From the NCBI GenBank assembly GCA_002840735.1, contig PHBY01000002.1, positions 62,001-126,000 on the forward strand: 64,000 nt of DNA, read 5' to 3'. Shown piece by piece: positions 53,983 to 59,345 of the stretch. The notes beneath the pieces are model-generated. The model worked only from the letters and a program-made list of their open reading frames with translations. It did no database searches and was not told where the DNA came from. The first letter of the stretch is position 1; the number at the start of each line of letters is the position of its first letter. The DNA is from Chloroflexi bacterium HGW-Chloroflexi-2. Its GTDB lineage: Bacteria; Chloroflexota; Anaerolineae; Anaerolineales; Anaerolineaceae. Position numbers and translations under genes: made by a program.

Positions 53983-54729
53983 TTATATTTGCGCATAGGC
54001 ATAAAATGTAGGTATGAATAGAATTCGAAATCCCTGAGTTCGTGCGTTGTCTTCTATTTCTTTATATTTTAGAATTTCTTCCACTGAGTACAGTTTTTCA
54101 AGATCACGCTGGGTGGTAGCCCATTCGGAATCAGCATTGATGGAATGGCTTTCAACCTTCTGGTGAAAACCGTAAATTCCCCAATGAATATTGGAGAACC
54201 CAGCTTGCATCAGCCAATTCTGTAAATTTCTCCCCGCTGACAGATTAACACCCTGATTTGATAGAGATGAATTTTGCATCTGTCCTAATTTATCAAGAGG
54301 AGAGGGGTAATCTATTCTGGATAGATAATCAGGTTCAGCGAAAATACAAATCCATCCTGTTTTATTTGTCACCCTGGACATTTCTTTAAGAATTCTTACC
54401 GGATTGTCTATCCAAAGCAGTAAATAATGGCAGAAACAAATATCAAAAAAATCGTTTTTGAGAGAGAGTGACAAACCATCTCCATTGATTAGACTTGCCT
54501 TAGAAGAATTTTGAATACTGTACTTAAGAATTTGAAAGTCAATGTCTAATCCAACTGTATTATGTCCCGATTCAGTAAATTCATCCAGAACTGCACAAGA
54601 TCCACAACCAACTTCCAAAATATTAGCTTGTAGAGGAAGTGATATTTGATTAATGATGAAATTTCTTGTTTCTCTTGTCCAGGATGCCTGTTGTTTATAG
54701 CGAGATGACCAGAATTGATAATCACTCAT
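53983..54729 (-). CDS. Class I SAM-dependent methyltransferase in the radical SAM cluster
   Basis: The 248-residue protein has the SAM-binding motif I ILEVGCGSCAVLDEF, motif II acidic GLDIDFQILKYS and the post-II run NGDGLSLSLKNDFFDICFCH, which fit a class I methyltransferase of the UbiE type. Its target is not evident. It overlaps the previous gene by four bases (ATGA), so it belongs to the same operon as the Cys-Ala tail protein and the radical SAM enzymes. A plausible role is methylation within the same modification pathway, but a separate task cannot be excluded. The N-terminus lacks a targeting signal. Confidence 0.82.
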   Translation of the reverse strand: MSDYQFWSSRYKQQASWTRETRNFIINQISLPLQANILEVGCGSCAVLDEFTESGHNTVGLDIDFQILKYSIQNSSKASLINGDGLSLSLKNDFFDICFCHYLLLWIDNPVRILKEMSRVTNKTGWICIFAEPDYLSRIDYPSPLDKLGQMQNSSLSNQGVNLSAGRNLQNWLMQAGFSNIHWGIYGFHQKVESHSINADSEWATTQRDLEKLYSVEEILKYKEIEDNARTQGFRILFIPTFYAYAQI

Positions 54730-55904
54730 TGACTTTTATTCAATAATTTTGCATTAGACCAAACCCATTCCCAGGAATCTGTCAGGAAATTTCCCAGCGG
54801 TTTATTGATGCCTTGAGCAGGCAAAGTATCACCATCCGGTTCTACATATAACCAGGCTTTCCCGGCACCTGCAGGAATGGTATCCCCTGAATCAATTTCT
54901 GCAGATACAGGATTGAATTGTGAATATGGAACAGGCAAATCCCAGTCCAAATTAAAGCCATATTCAGCAGCTTTATTGCGTAATTCGATGACTAGGTTCT
55001 CGAGATCGGGATTATTAAAACTTAATGAAATGTTTTCAACGCCAATTTGTTTGAATTCATCCATTATCTTAATATAATCATCTGCTGTTGATTTTTCGAT
55101 GGTTAAATGAACTGTTGTATGAATATCCTGCGGAATAATATCTCGGAGAGCTTTCCAGGATTGCTCATTTTCCGGTTCAAATGTAATTAATAAATGATCC
55201 AATCCGGAGTTTAATATTTGTTCCAGATATTCATTTTCTGACAGCTTTAGACCATCTGTTGCTAACCCGGTTACCATCCCAAGTTCTTCAGCCAGGATAA
55301 TGATTTCTATTAAATCCGGTCTTTGTGTAGGTTCACCCCCAGTAAAAATTACATGAGGAATGCCGTTTGACCAGGCTTTTTCGAGAATTAATTTCCATTC
55401 ATCAAATGATAATTCCTGCTTGACTCTGTCTTTTGGAGATAAACCAAGTTCGTCCTTGTTACTTAATTTATAAGTCAATGCACAATCCAATCGATATGGA
55501 GCAACCGGGAAATCGATATACGGTGTAGATCTTTCGAAATCCAGATAAGTTACCGGATCTAAATCTGGCGTATTGATCAAAGTGTCAATCCGGGTCATGA
55601 AATTATCAAAATCCTTGGTGACATCTGCATAAGTGATTTGATAGCGTTTGATGATCGATTCGATGACTTTTGGTTGGGGGGTTTGTTGGATTAAGTGATA
55701 AGCATATTCTGTAGCGGTTTGGTTAAGATGAAGAACAGTGCTGGCATTTATGATCAGCAAACCTTCTCCGCCTGGTTCAATCCTCAAGTGGAGACGATAT
55801 TGATAATCGCTGTCTTGTGGGGCTTGATAGTTATACAATCCAGGTGGTAAAACCTGTGCCTTATCAAAAAAAATCGATTTCAATCGTTTGACAATATTGC
55901 TCAT
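54726..55904 (-). CDS. Degenerate radical SAM paralogue lacking the iron-sulfur cysteines
   Basis: This is a clear paralogue of the adjacent enzyme: PqqD-like N-terminal domain (residues 20-110), then a radical SAM barrel with VIFTGGEPTQ retained. The cluster-binding Cys triad is replaced by Leu147, Asp151 and Gly154 (segment YKLSNKDELGLS). The C-terminal SPASM cysteines are also gone (DGDTLPAQGIN where the partner has DGDVLPCQSYY). Only one Cys (141) remains in the protein, so it cannot hold a 4Fe-4S cluster. I prefer the ATG at 55904, placed five bases after GGAGG. It probably serves as a non-catalytic partner or substrate-binding subunit. Confidence 0.85.
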   Translation of the reverse strand: MSNIVKRLKSIFFDKAQVLPPGLYNYQAPQDSDYQYRLHLRIEPGGEGLLIINASTVLHLNQTATEYAYHLIQQTPQPKVIESIIKRYQITYADVTKDFDNFMTRIDTLINTPDLDPVTYLDFERSTPYIDFPVAPYRLDCALTYKLSNKDELGLSPKDRVKQELSFDEWKLILEKAWSNGIPHVIFTGGEPTQRPDLIEIIILAEELGMVTGLATDGLKLSENEYLEQILNSGLDHLLITFEPENEQSWKALRDIIPQDIHTTVHLTIEKSTADDYIKIMDEFKQIGVENISLSFNNPDLENLVIELRNKAAEYGFNLDWDLPVPYSQFNPVSAEIDSGDTIPAGAGKAWLYVEPDGDTLPAQGINKPLGNFLTDSWEWVWSNAKLLNKSQ

Positions 55905-55944: not shown

Positions 55945-57270
55945 TTAATTTGAAAGCGGACATCCTCCACCACATTCCTGAATAAGCTCACACTGATTGC
56001 ATTTTTGTGGAAGATTTTTTCTTTCACGAAGTTGTAATGATAATTCATGATTCCAGATGGAATTCCATGAATTCTTGAGTATATTTCCCAAGGGATAATA
56101 ATAAGATTGACAGGGAAGGACATCCCCATTGGGTTCAAGGCACATATTATACAAGGCTGCAGAACAACCCTTTACACCCAATTCGTGGGTAATGGGATTA
56201 AAGCGACAATAATGAGTGGGCGTATACCAGATTAATTTCTGGTTGTAATTGATGGTTTTTTCTTTGGCAATTTCCAATAAGGGAGAAAGCTGTGTTTCAG
56301 ATAAGCCTGTGCCAACGTCTTTGCCTTTGCCGGAATAAATCAATGCGTTCAAGCCAACCGTGGGTACACCTAATTCAGCCAGAAAATCGAGTGTCTGTGG
56401 AATTTCTCTATAATTAGTTTTCAACATGGTGGTATTGGTCATCATGTAGACTTCTTTTTGCAGAACATTTTTTATTCCTGACACTGTTTCTTCCCAGGCA
56501 CCTGGAAAATTGACCATCTGATCATGTATTTGTGAGTTTGAAGACTCCAATGTGATTTGAATGTGATCCAGACCAGCAGCAATTAGTTGATTGAGAAAGC
56601 TTTCATTTGCTAATTTGCGCCCATTTGTGTTAATTCCGGTAATTATTCCTTTGTTTTCGGCGTATTGAATGAGATCTGGTAAATATTCACAAAGCGTTGG
56701 TTCTCCACCTGTAAAAACGATATGCGGAATACTCAATTCCCAAATATTATCGATTACTTTAAACCAATCGTTTTCAGATAATGAAGCGAAATTGCGTGAA
56801 CGGGCATTGTAACAGTGTGTGCAATCATTATTGCATTGATAAGATAATGCAATATCCATCCGATATGGTGCACTGGGGGTGTGGGAGAATGGCAGATCCA
56901 TGTCCAGATCCAACTCGCATAATGGGCAACTTTCATCAGGATCTGTGATGACTTCCATCTGAGCCAAAAAAGATTTGGCATCTTCGACCAATTGATCATC
57001 TTCAATTTCAAAATGATTGGTTAATGAATTCAGTATCTCATTTTCCGTATATTCTGATAATTGCCAATACGCCATAGCGGTTGCACTTGAATTGAGGTGA
57101 TAAGCTCTGGCGGCATTAACTAACAACAATCCGTTACCATCATTTTCTACACGTAAGTGAATCCGATTCTTGCTATGATCTTTTTGTTGCTCAAAATGAT
57201 AGATACCAGTAGTTGGTAATTTGGGAGAATTTTTCCTTATTAATGGTTTTTGCCAGAAAGGAAAAGCCAT
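55945..57270 (-). CDS. Radical SAM/SPASM enzyme with N-terminal PqqD-like (RRE) domain
   Basis: The 441-residue protein has a PqqD-like recognition domain (about 20-110, ending before DPDESCPLCELD). The radical SAM barrel carries CNNDCTHC (Cys146, 150, 153) and GGEPTLCEYLPDLI. A C-terminal SPASM domain has GCSAALYNMCLEPNGDVLPC and the final cysteines 424, 427, 433 and 437 (CNQCELIQECGGGC). This set is typical of peptide-modifying enzymes that form thioether or other crosslinks. Its ATG overlaps the stop of the Cys-Ala tail gene (TAATG), so the two are translationally coupled. It is the best candidate to modify that tail. An ORF start at 57303 reads the tail in another frame and is rejected. 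Confidence 0.93.
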   Translation of the reverse strand: MAFPFWQKPLIRKNSPKLPTTGIYHFEQQKDHSKNRIHLRVENDGNGLLLVNAARAYHLNSSATAMAYWQLSEYTENEILNSLTNHFEIEDDQLVEDAKSFLAQMEVITDPDESCPLCELDLDMDLPFSHTPSAPYRMDIALSYQCNNDCTHCYNARSRNFASLSENDWFKVIDNIWELSIPHIVFTGGEPTLCEYLPDLIQYAENKGIITGINTNGRKLANESFLNQLIAAGLDHIQITLESSNSQIHDQMVNFPGAWEETVSGIKNVLQKEVYMMTNTTMLKTNYREIPQTLDFLAELGVPTVGLNALIYSGKGKDVGTGLSETQLSPLLEIAKEKTINYNQKLIWYTPTHYCRFNPITHELGVKGCSAALYNMCLEPNGDVLPCQSYYYPLGNILKNSWNSIWNHELSLQLRERKNLPQKCNQCELIQECGGGCPLSN

Positions 57271-58964
57271 TAGCGTCCACCTCCAGCACAGGCACAGGCA
57301 CAACCTGCACAGGCGCAGGCACAGGCACAGGAGCCTCCTCCACCACCTCCCCTGGATGATCGACCTGAAGATGAAGTGGATTTGGGAACTGGATTGGTCT
57401 TATTTGTCACGCCACTGGTGAAGTTGGTCAGATTTCCTACAACTCCCGAGGCAAAAGACTGAACACCGTTGGTGATGGAAGCAGCAAAATCCGCTCCTGG
57501 TAAACTCGGAAGATTGATAGTCGTTTTTCCTGATCCGGATGGCATGGGAGAAGCATCCACTTTGCCAAAAGTTGGAGTGCTTGAAGTCGTTGGTCTGACC
57601 ATTGGGTCATAACGCCACCACCAGGTGGGGATAAAAACAGGGCCTGATCCGAATGATTCTTTTGTACGGCCGTCAAAATTCTTATCCAGCATCGTCCAAT
57701 CTAGATTTTCATCATATTTTTCAGATTTGACTTCTGGTGTCTGAGCTGATTCAACCTGATTCCAGGCTTTTTCCATAATATCTTTATAAAAGGCAATTGA
57801 TTCTTTGCGACTGAATCCTTTCATCTTTTTTGATACAGAGCTGACTAAATTTATGATCATTGATTGAAGGTCAGTTTTTGTTTCTCTATTGTCTTTCTGC
57901 ATCGCATTTAAAAATTCAATTTCGTACGGTTGTAAATCGTCCGGCTTTGGATCATATACTTTTATTTTTAAAGGATCTCTTTTAGAAACCTCGGCTGCTC
58001 CTTTTTTAAGAACACCGAATAAGATCATCATTAATACTTTATCCATAGGCTGTTCCATCAAAATCGCGGCTTCAACAGCTGTTAACCCTCTTTTAATTCC
58101 ATGACCCTCCACGGATATTTTTGGCGGGAGGTATTTGAGTTTGCGCTTTTTTGCTCCCACCGTGGCTGAATAAATTGTCAATGCAAAGAATGCGAATATA
58201 CCCAGACAAATCAGTCCCGAGCAGATTGCATCAGAGTCGAAGGTGATAGATGGAGCCTTTACAATTTGAGTTTCCGGCACTAATCTGGCAGGAAAACTGG
58301 CACCAAATTTATATTGGGTGTAAGAATTGGCATTCGGGCTATTCCACTGGTAGTAGATACCTCCCACGTTGTCTAAACCACTTATAGGAGTAGAATCTCC
58401 AGGCCAGCCTTGTGGTGTGTGGTAGCGAGGTTCATTTTCTGTAAGTCCGACGGGAAGATAAAGTGTCACAGTCATGTCAGTGCTGCCGGCAATAAATTCC
58501 GGTCCAAACCAGGTTGGAGAAATTTCAAAACTTGCGTAGTCTTCGTCTGCTTCCACTTCGGATGGATACAAAGATTTATTGATTGTCCCGACAAAAACAT
58601 GCAGGGTGCCTCTTTGTCCAGCTGGTATAGCCTGATTTCCCAGGTCAACCATGATGCCAATATCAATATAATCAGATTTTTTAATACTATCTACAGGTAA
58701 TCCGTTAATATCCGCTGTAATACTATTCAATACATAATTATTGTTTGGTAGACCAATATCGACAATATCAATTGGGTGTGCGCCAGGTTGATTTACCAGA
58801 TCAAAATAGTATTCAATCGATAGAGAACCGTCTTCATTTACAAAGACATCCATGGTTTGCTTTTCGACAGCAAAATAATAATCCTGTGCATGAACAACAC
58901 CAGAATTACCTGCCAACATTAACAGGATTAATAAAATACTGAATAATTTAATTTTTCTAATCAT
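57270..58964 (-). CDS. DUF2207-like membrane protein with C-terminal Gly-rich and (Cys-Ala)n tail
   Basis: A cleavable signal peptide (residues 1-26, ending VHAQ) is followed by a β-rich extracellular domain (to about 240), one membrane helix (about 245-268) ending with KKRK, and a cytoplasmic part. The latter has a helical domain, a Ser/Thr/Pro-rich linker and a Gly-rich stretch. The tail holds cysteines at 546, 548, 550, 552, 555, 557 and 559, alternating with Ala and ending GGGR. The DUF2207-like assignment is by layout and segments such as DVFVNEDGSLSIEYYFDL. The predicted topology puts the tail in the cytoplasm, where the coupled radical SAM enzyme acts. GGAGG inside the tail codons is the ribosome site of the next gene. 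The biological role is unknown. Confidence 0.88.
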   Translation of the reverse strand: MIRKIKLFSILLILLMLAGNSGVVHAQDYYFAVEKQTMDVFVNEDGSLSIEYYFDLVNQPGAHPIDIVDIGLPNNNYVLNSITADINGLPVDSIKKSDYIDIGIMVDLGNQAIPAGQRGTLHVFVGTINKSLYPSEVEADEDYASFEISPTWFGPEFIAGSTDMTVTLYLPVGLTENEPRYHTPQGWPGDSTPISGLDNVGGIYYQWNSPNANSYTQYKFGASFPARLVPETQIVKAPSITFDSDAICSGLICLGIFAFFALTIYSATVGAKKRKLKYLPPKISVEGHGIKRGLTAVEAAILMEQPMDKVLMMILFGVLKKGAAEVSKRDPLKIKVYDPKPDDLQPYEIEFLNAMQKDNRETKTDLQSMIINLVSSVSKKMKGFSRKESIAFYKDIMEKAWNQVESAQTPEVKSEKYDENLDWTMLDKNFDGRTKESFGSGPVFIPTWWWRYDPMVRPTTSSTPTFGKVDASPMPSGSGKTTINLPSLPGADFAASITNGVQSFASGVVGNLTNFTSGVTNKTNPVPKSTSSSGRSSRGGGGGGSCACACACAGCACACAGGGR

Positions 58965-58988: not shown

Positions 58989-59345
58989 TTACCATTTTGG
59001 TTCTTCGGTTAATTGGTAGGTTGTGTTGCAGTACGGGCAGGAGACCATTGGGGCTCCATTTACCAGGGAAATTGAGTCCTTCGTCAAAATACCGCCACAT
59101 TGCTGGCATTTGAGTGATTCGAGGGATACATTTCCAGGAAGATCGACATTGAGGGTGACATTGGTAGTATTGGACTCAATTTTCTTTTTTCGAGTTACAA
59201 AGAAAATAATTCCAAACGCAACGAGACAAAGAATTGCACCAACCAACAAATTTCCAACCTGTCCTTGCGGACTGAATGCACTCAATATAAATAAGACTCC
59301 AAATAGAATCAGAATACCTGAAGCAAGATATGCAATGATTTTCAT
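58989..59345 (-). CDS. Small membrane protein with C-terminal zinc ribbon
   Basis: The 118-residue protein has two membrane helices (about residues 5-25 and 32-52) followed by a charged TRKKK and a β-rich part with a zinc ribbon (KCQQCGG and SCPYCNT). The C-terminus is predicted to be in the cytoplasm. It is the first gene of the radical SAM cluster, 24 bases ahead of the Cys-Ala tail gene, behind a GGAGG site. A chaperone or scaffold role in the modification pathway is inference; the protein itself is not recognised. Confidence 0.75.
   Translation of the reverse strand: MKIIAYLASGILILFGVLFILSAFSPQGQVGNLLVGAILCLVAFGIIFFVTRKKKIESNTTNVTLNVDLPGNVSLESLKCQQCGGILTKDSISLVNGAPMVSCPYCNTTYQLTEEPKW

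Follow-up and report, generated by a model that had tools for sequence, protein, structure and literature searches.

We describe here a stretch of 64,000 nucleotides from the genome of Chloroflexi bacterium HGW-Chloroflexi-2 (contig PHBY01000002.1, positions 62,001 to 126,000; the whole stretch is called the window below). In this window the gene of a 564-residue membrane protein ends with a cysteine-alanine tail, and the last glycine codons of the tail contain the Shine-Dalgarno sequence (SD) of the following gene, which encodes a radical S-adenosylmethionine (SAM)/SPASM enzyme. The junction between the two genes is a strong example of a layout already known from translational coupling, with the unusual trait that its SD comes at no cost. 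The explanation which we hold to be reasonably probable as a whole combines a coupling of the two genes through their TAATG overlap and this SD, a need of the protein for the terminal residues GGGR together with a need of the RNA which is expressed at the level of codons, and a modification of the tail by the enzyme. It is the tail itself, rather than the junction, which is the larger discovery.

The junction between the tail gene and the enzyme gene

The gene of the membrane protein (58964-57270 on the minus strand, stop codon included, delimited by its open reading frame) ends with the codons GCT GGA GGT GGA CGC TAA, as read from the sequence and the open reading frame. Its last 19 residues, CACACACAGCACACAGGGR, form the Cys-Ala tail (57273-57329, minus strand, from the translation of the open reading frame). 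The stop codon TAA (57272-57270) and the ATG of the enzyme (57270-57268) have one base in common and form together the motif TAATG (57272-57268, minus strand). Within the codons of the last three glycines of the tail lies the SD GGAGGTGG (57284-57277, minus strand), whose GGAGG is separated from the enzyme ATG by 9 nt. The 3' end of the 16S RNA of the host genome itself is GGATCACCTCCTTTCT, which is the standard anti-SD, and the pairing energy of the SD at the enzyme start is -13.8 kcal/mol. The original prediction, which had placed an SD within the last codons of the tail and a TAATG overlap behind it, is borne out on both points by the sequence and the open reading frames. It had also spoken of the final Gly residues: the three glycines are indeed present, but the very last residue is an arginine, which they precede.

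Termination-reinitiation pairs (Huber et al. 2019, PMC6728339; Huber et al. 2023, PMC10666635) have the same two features as the window junction: a short overlap (1 or 4 nt, and here 1 nt) and an SD within the upstream open reading frame, which here can pair with the anti-SD of the 16S RNA at the energy just given. In experiments made in E. coli and Haloferax, 13 of 14 overlapping gene pairs proved to be coupled (PMC6728339, PMC10666635). Reinitiation fell when the SD was removed from E. coli pairs, in 4 of 5 cases (PMC6728339, PMC10666635, PMC12548453), and a gap of about 20 nt nearly abolished the coupling (PMC6728339, PMC10666635, and the review PMC12548453). Overlaps whose SD stands within the upstream gene had already been described, together with the extra constraint that bears on the C-terminus of the upstream protein (PMC6728339). 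Unlike the pairs of Huber et al., the window junction has its SD in residues which are invariant for another reason, so that no amino-acid cost is paid and the constraint can be read at the codon level only.

From this layout we infer that, in the genus of the window, a ribosome which ends the tail at TAA would stay on GGAGGTGG, or be recaptured by it, and would restart at the ATG of the enzyme. Most of the enzyme would then be made as the tail is made, by termination and reinitiation. The enzyme, which resembles the maturases of ribosomally synthesized and post-translationally modified peptides (RiPPs), would in turn modify the tail, probably by thioether cross-links on its cysteines, while the tail is still on the cytosolic end of the membrane protein.

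It could be objected that the enzyme starts elsewhere and that gene calling has produced the overlap by accident, an idea that we find very improbable. An alternative start does exist, an in-frame TTG located 34 nt upstream of the base that follows the tail stop; however, the enzyme ATG is found exactly at -1 in the eight genomes of the genus, the searched start region of the window locus contains no other in-frame ATG, and the best SD of this region is positioned for the -1 ATG. A search for inverted repeats at the junction found none.

The octamer GGAGGTGG has 2 copies in the window, against 1.02 expected. The second copy (57350-57343, minus strand) falls within the part of this same gene that encodes the Gly-rich linker, where it serves no start codon, and provides us with an internal control. 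This shows that the octamer itself is a by-product of glycine codons; its location ahead of an ATG, by contrast, is not. A pairing energy of -10 kcal/mol or below is reached at just 0.4% of 691 ATGs taken at random from the host genome. As a background for the overlap we used a 375 kb sample of this genome, in which a rough gene call gives 275 genes, with 148 pairs of close neighbours on the same strand. An overlap of 1 or 4 nt is seen in 15 of these pairs, and 8 of the 15 have an SD at or below -6 kcal/mol; the strongest SD of the 15 is that of the tail-enzyme junction. Overlaps of this kind, with the SD located in the upstream gene, are commonplace in operons, and the window junction is a strong case.

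Protein need and codon choice at the end of the tail

In the family to which the window belongs, the enzyme is found at E <= 1e-40 in 127 of 147 genomes (60 of 64 among the good-quality ones). We read the junctions of 117 loci of this family, the starts being chosen there with the SD in view; L086, which contains Ns, the truncated locus L108, and L117, L118, L120 and L121, which have no tail, were left out. In the genus of the window, the -1 ATG is accompanied by an SD in the Gly codons in every one of the 8 genomes, seven times with GGAGG and once, in the eighth genome, as GGTGGGGGC (-8.4 kcal/mol). Most of the other genera of the family have the enzyme start after the tail stop, at distances that reach about 70 nt and, occasionally, more.

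Starts were also called blindly, by taking the first in-frame ATG, or else GTG, not earlier than -4 and disregarding the SD. Among the 195 unique tail loci with an adjacent enzyme, 46 have a close start (-1 to +5), 137 a distant one (+8 or more) and 12 lie between; these 12 were excluded from the contrast of close and distant starts, and 28 tails without an adjacent enzyme or start were left out. GGAGG is present in the Gly codons at close-start loci outside the genus too, including two contigs of Hodarchaeota (L172 and L208) in which GGAGGTGGACG stands immediately ahead of the enzyme ATG. A coupling general to the whole family of loci was rejected, as 137 of the 195 start at least 8 nt past the stop; if the near loss of coupling at about 20 nt applies here, this mechanism would not operate at the numerous loci whose gap is of that size or larger. 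The comparison of homologous loci which the original prediction had called for, looking at the conservation of both the Gly end and the overlap, thus has two outcomes: within the genus both are conserved, while beyond it GGGR is kept and the position of the enzyme start is mixed.

Genus g5 has an arrangement which is different from close-start coupling. In 8 of its 14 loci (L018, L023, L034, L042, L043, L046, L062 and L126), a stable hairpin whose 3' arm contains AGGAG is found about 18-45 nt past the tail stop and before the enzyme start; a 75-nt stretch folds there at -20 to -30 kcal/mol, and changes are seen on both arms. Searched for as a genome-wide repeat, with an inner stretch of 8-12 nt, the pattern has 0-6 sites per genome, a count which misses copies with a longer inner stretch.

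The residues GGGR form the end of 240 of 242 unique tails, the two exceptions being one stretch with Ns and one GGGSGR. The 35 tails without an enzyme behind them, two of which stand at contig ends (L157 and L271), all end with GGGR, and their use of GGA is at background level (9 against 7.1 expected). An enzyme gene lying far away, which the original prediction had named as evidence that would refute coupling, is common: the enzyme may start 8-700 nt later, sit upstream or be on another contig, and GGGR is kept in all these situations. Outside the family, for instance, 29 of the genomes sampled (draft assemblies) have both the tail and the enzyme; the two genes stand on separate contigs in 4 of them (G246, G379, G397 and G500), and in 7 others the enzyme precedes the tail gene by about 3 to 7 kb (G320, G333, G364, G402, G496, G502 and G525). 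GGGR therefore persists independently of any need for an SD, which means that the protein, and not the RNA, fixes these residues. The need of the RNA acts through synonymous codons only.

At close starts, GGA is used at Gly codon 1 or 2, where it makes GGAGG, in 35 of 46 loci, while 20.8 would be expected from the Gly codons of the same genes; at distant starts it is used there in 24 of 137 loci, against 41.0 expected (Fisher p 9e-13 for the contrast). Gly codon 3 serves as a control: GGA followed there by the Arg codon does not make GGAGG, and its use does not differ (18 of 46 close against 65 of 137 distant, p 0.39). When the loci are collapsed into units at 80, 70, 60 or 55% enzyme identity, the proportions are 0.77-0.89 for close and 0.17-0.42 for distant starts (permutation p 5e-5 to 1e-3). 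In genes whose GC content at third codon positions (GC3) is at least 0.6, GGA is found at Gly 1 or 2 in 15 of 15 close starts, against 3.5 expected from the same genes, and in 18 of 71 distant ones. The median SD energy is -10.3 kcal/mol at close and -4.2 kcal/mol at distant starts. In a resampling of codons, carried out without 2 distant-start loci, the SDs of close starts exceed what codon usage predicts (p 0.0022, 0.016 and 0.0015 for units at 70, 60 and 55%), and the distant-start tails are weaker than usage predicts at 70% (p 0.0011) but not at 60 or 55%. Lineages in which the enzyme starts within 5 nt tend to favour GGA where GGAGG is completed. GGGR supplies a usable SD for free, and this SD is modestly strengthened at close starts. 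The original prediction, according to which the Gly residues answer to both a protein and an RNA need, does not hold for the residues as far as the RNA is concerned, and holds in part for their codons.

At distant-start loci, GGA is rarer at the tail Gly codons 1 and 2 than in the rest of the same genes, as the numbers above indicate; this deficit is possibly an avoidance of stray SDs.

Several results weigh against our explanation. Written with its own codon usage, GGGR already averages -9.3 kcal/mol at close starts, where -10.5 is observed, and the excess is small. At the window locus, about 13% of the redraws of the last six codons, made with the codon usage of the gene itself, give an SD at least as strong as the real one. 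Five close-start loci (L071, L076, L090, L252 and L266) have an SD which is weak for their codon usage (percentile > 0.75). A hairpin over the enzyme ATG, with a z of -4.2 at the window locus, is not kept in the genus. Finally, in a tree of 170 enzymes, built without 13 short proteins, the start distance changes at least 15 times and 8 pairs lie on supported branches; the phylogenetic independent-pairs test made on these 8 pairs is not significant (on average 3.2 for, 1.6 against and 3.2 without difference), the informative pairs being so few that 0.05 was out of reach. Hence shared ancestry may still be a source of the contrast between close and distant starts.

The hairpin just mentioned was considered as a way of hiding the enzyme ATG, and this was rejected, as most of the 7 remaining loci of the genus have it only weakly or not at all. 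The accessibility of the SD stretch gave no clear signal either (median unpaired probability 0.34 at close against 0.44 at distant starts).

A rival explanation is that of an ordinary compact operon. The SD would then be the normal output of Gly codons, the enzyme would be started de novo by free 30S subunits, and coupling would not have been selected. The energy that GGGR owes to codon usage, the redraws which equal the window locus, the outcome of the pair test, the uselessness of the same octamer in the Gly linker and the 8 SD-bearing overlaps among the 148 same-strand pairs of the genome are all in its favour. We nevertheless think it rather unlikely: in high-GC genomes GGA is present at Gly 1 or 2 whenever the start is close, GGA is not raised at Gly 3 at close starts, the overlap is kept throughout the genus, and free subunits would be kept from initiating there by a ribosome that is reading the tail. 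We retain as the more probable explanation a coupling of the enzyme to the tail, with a need of the RNA at the codon level. As to the original prediction, what it observed is confirmed and its interpretation is partly supported.

The enzyme and its probable substrate

The enzyme (441 residues, 55945-57270, minus strand) matches the Pfam domains Radical_SAM (82.5 bits) and SPASM (41.4 bits), both above cut-off, and the columns of its CxxxCxxC and SPASM cysteines are kept in at least 90% of 21 homologues. Its N-terminal domain may be akin to a RiPP recognition element (RRE), its PqqD (RRE) match of 21.7 bits lying under the cut-off of 23.4. In the model of the enzyme (predicted local distance difference test, pLDDT, 88), this domain has four strands and three helices; the full-length alignment with SuiB has a TM-score of 0.68, and the nearest solved folds are SkfB, SuiB and the sactipeptide maturase 5why. 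With the radical SAM/SPASM maturases of RiPPs (SkfB, SuiB, 5why, PqqE) the enzyme shares both domains and the nearest solved folds, and possibly an RRE-like N-terminus. It differs from them in being linked to the tail of a 564-residue membrane protein, and it reaches no equivalog cut-off of NCBIfam. The Cys-rich sequence linked to it is not a short leader-core precursor peptide but the end of this membrane protein, and we therefore call the enzyme maturase-like only. Compared with the ACGX system (TIGR04340), the enzyme scores 84.2 bits, far under the curated cut-off of 400 bits, and the motif differs. In ACGX and other repeat-peptide systems (His-Xaa-Ser), a repeated motif stands beside a radical SAM enzyme, as it does here. 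The matches given by PADLOC were generic radical SAM or methyltransferase ones only, and were not retained.

The two genes belong to a run of five on the minus strand, whose order is kept in 51 of the 60 family loci of at least 9 kb. The run begins with a 118-residue membrane protein read from its open reading frame (58989-59345, minus strand), which has a CxxC zinc-ribbon-like end, is present in 56 of these 60 loci and matches no Pfam or NCBIfam family above cut-off. The tail protein and the enzyme are followed by a pseudo-radical-SAM paralogue (54726-55904, minus strand; 51 of the 60 loci), 31% identical to the enzyme, which lacks the CxxxCxxC cysteines and has kept GGEPT, and by a SAM-dependent methyltransferase (53983-54729, minus strand; Methyltransf_11, 62.1 bits; 56 of the 60 loci), which has an ATGA overlap with the preceding gene.

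For the co-occurrence of tail and enzyme we sampled 80 genomes of the class by tail status: 30 were drawn from the 55 that lie outside the family and carry the tail, and 50, all >= 94% complete, from the 331 tail-negative ones. The enzyme is found at E <= 1e-100 in 29 of the 30 tail-positive genomes and in none of the 50 tail-negative ones, 9 of which have weak matches (7e-50 to 2.5e-67). The enzyme is probably the maturase of the tail: the co-occurrence, the gene order and the type of the enzyme point to the tail as its substrate. That the modification would be a Cys thioether is a guess, made from the relatives of the enzyme.

The tail might instead be a metal-binding or redox Cys tail, the enzyme, its paralogue and the methyltransferase acting on something else, encoded nearby or elsewhere. 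The alternating cysteines would also fit metal binding, one tail-bearing genome (G485) lacks the enzyme, and several tails have no enzyme relative in the fetched stretch (8 kb for the tail proteins of Lokiarchaeota L225 and Sigynarchaeota L182). Moreover, four genomes of genus g10 (L117, L118, L120 and L121) have relatives of the enzyme, at about 47% identity, in whose vicinity neither a tail protein nor the other genes of the operon are present. We judge this alternative unlikely all the same, as the co-occurrence holds even when the tail gene and the enzyme gene lie on separate contigs (G246, G379, G397 and G500), the nearest folds of the enzyme are maturases of peptides and proteins, and the tail is a disordered and invariant end, as expected of a substrate.

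A tail shared by bacteria and Asgard archaea

According to its model (pLDDT 84), the 564-residue protein consists of a signal peptide, a ribophorin-I-like outer domain (27-227), one transmembrane helix (244-276), a helical inner domain, a disordered Gly-rich linker and the disordered tail. In a structure comparison of the model, the outer domain resembles chain 6ezn_A of the yeast oligosaccharyltransferase (Z 17.1, 184 residues, root-mean-square deviation 2.8), a subunit which we take to be ribophorin I/Ost1. A Lys/Arg-rich stretch directly follows the transmembrane helix; the positive-inside rule makes such a flank the cytosolic side, and the tail should therefore be cytosolic. Neither Pfam nor NCBIfam has a family that matches the window protein up to E 0.1. 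Among 42 homologues, weak matches to DUF2207_C were found in 1 and to TIGR04222 in 3; unlike the members of these families, the window protein itself has no match to a curated hidden Markov model (0 families). DUF2207 and TIGR04222 proteins have a similar layout, made of an outer domain, a transmembrane helix and a Gly-rich end.

The tail follows the pattern C(AC)nAGC(AC)nAGGGR, which we found in 65 of 396 genomes of the class and in at least 119 stretches of named genomes. The bacteria among the listed matches are Chloroflexota, Aminicenantes, Zixiibacteriota, Coatesbacteria, Sabulitectum/Fermentibacteraceae, Pirellulales, Armatimonadetes, Hydrogenedentota and Acidobacteriota; the Asgard archaea among them are Hodarchaeota, Heimdallarchaeota, Lokiarchaeota and Sigynarchaeota. 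The bodies of the tail proteins are 27-81% identical to the window protein, and the tails differ in repeat length only. In the PMC collection which we searched, no paper was found for the tail string, nor for DUF2207 and radical SAM together. This widespread tail is uncatalogued, in that it is in no family library or paper that was searched.

A variant tail, CACACAGCACACACAGGGR, in which the lengths of the segments are swapped, occurs in L162, L171, L200, L202, L233, L333, L334 and L337; the enzyme is several kb upstream in most of these loci, and a tandem pair of tail proteins is present in L333 and L334. In L231 (Hungatella hathewayi), a membrane-type open reading frame has CACACAGCACACACAGGGR followed by AGCSQKDFYN..., and its 8-kb stretch contains no relative of the enzyme.

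A wider explanation, which we put forward tentatively and regard as doubtful, is that the tail would be a cross-domain radical-SAM tag on the cytosolic end of a ribophorin-like protein, whose Gly codons would have been recruited repeatedly, among bacteria as well as Asgard archaea, to serve as the ribosome site for the very enzyme that matures it, each finished tail releasing a ribosome to make the enzyme.

The residues of the tail are fixed by the function of the protein, the third codon bases alone are free, and the distance of the enzyme start varies by lineage. Hence the tail family is a natural experiment on the strength of selection for an SD inside a coding region, and on whether such an SD is lost where it serves no need. 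The tail, which does not vary between Chloroflexota and Asgard archaea and goes with a single maturase-like enzyme, also offers a concrete target in the search for a new protein modification.

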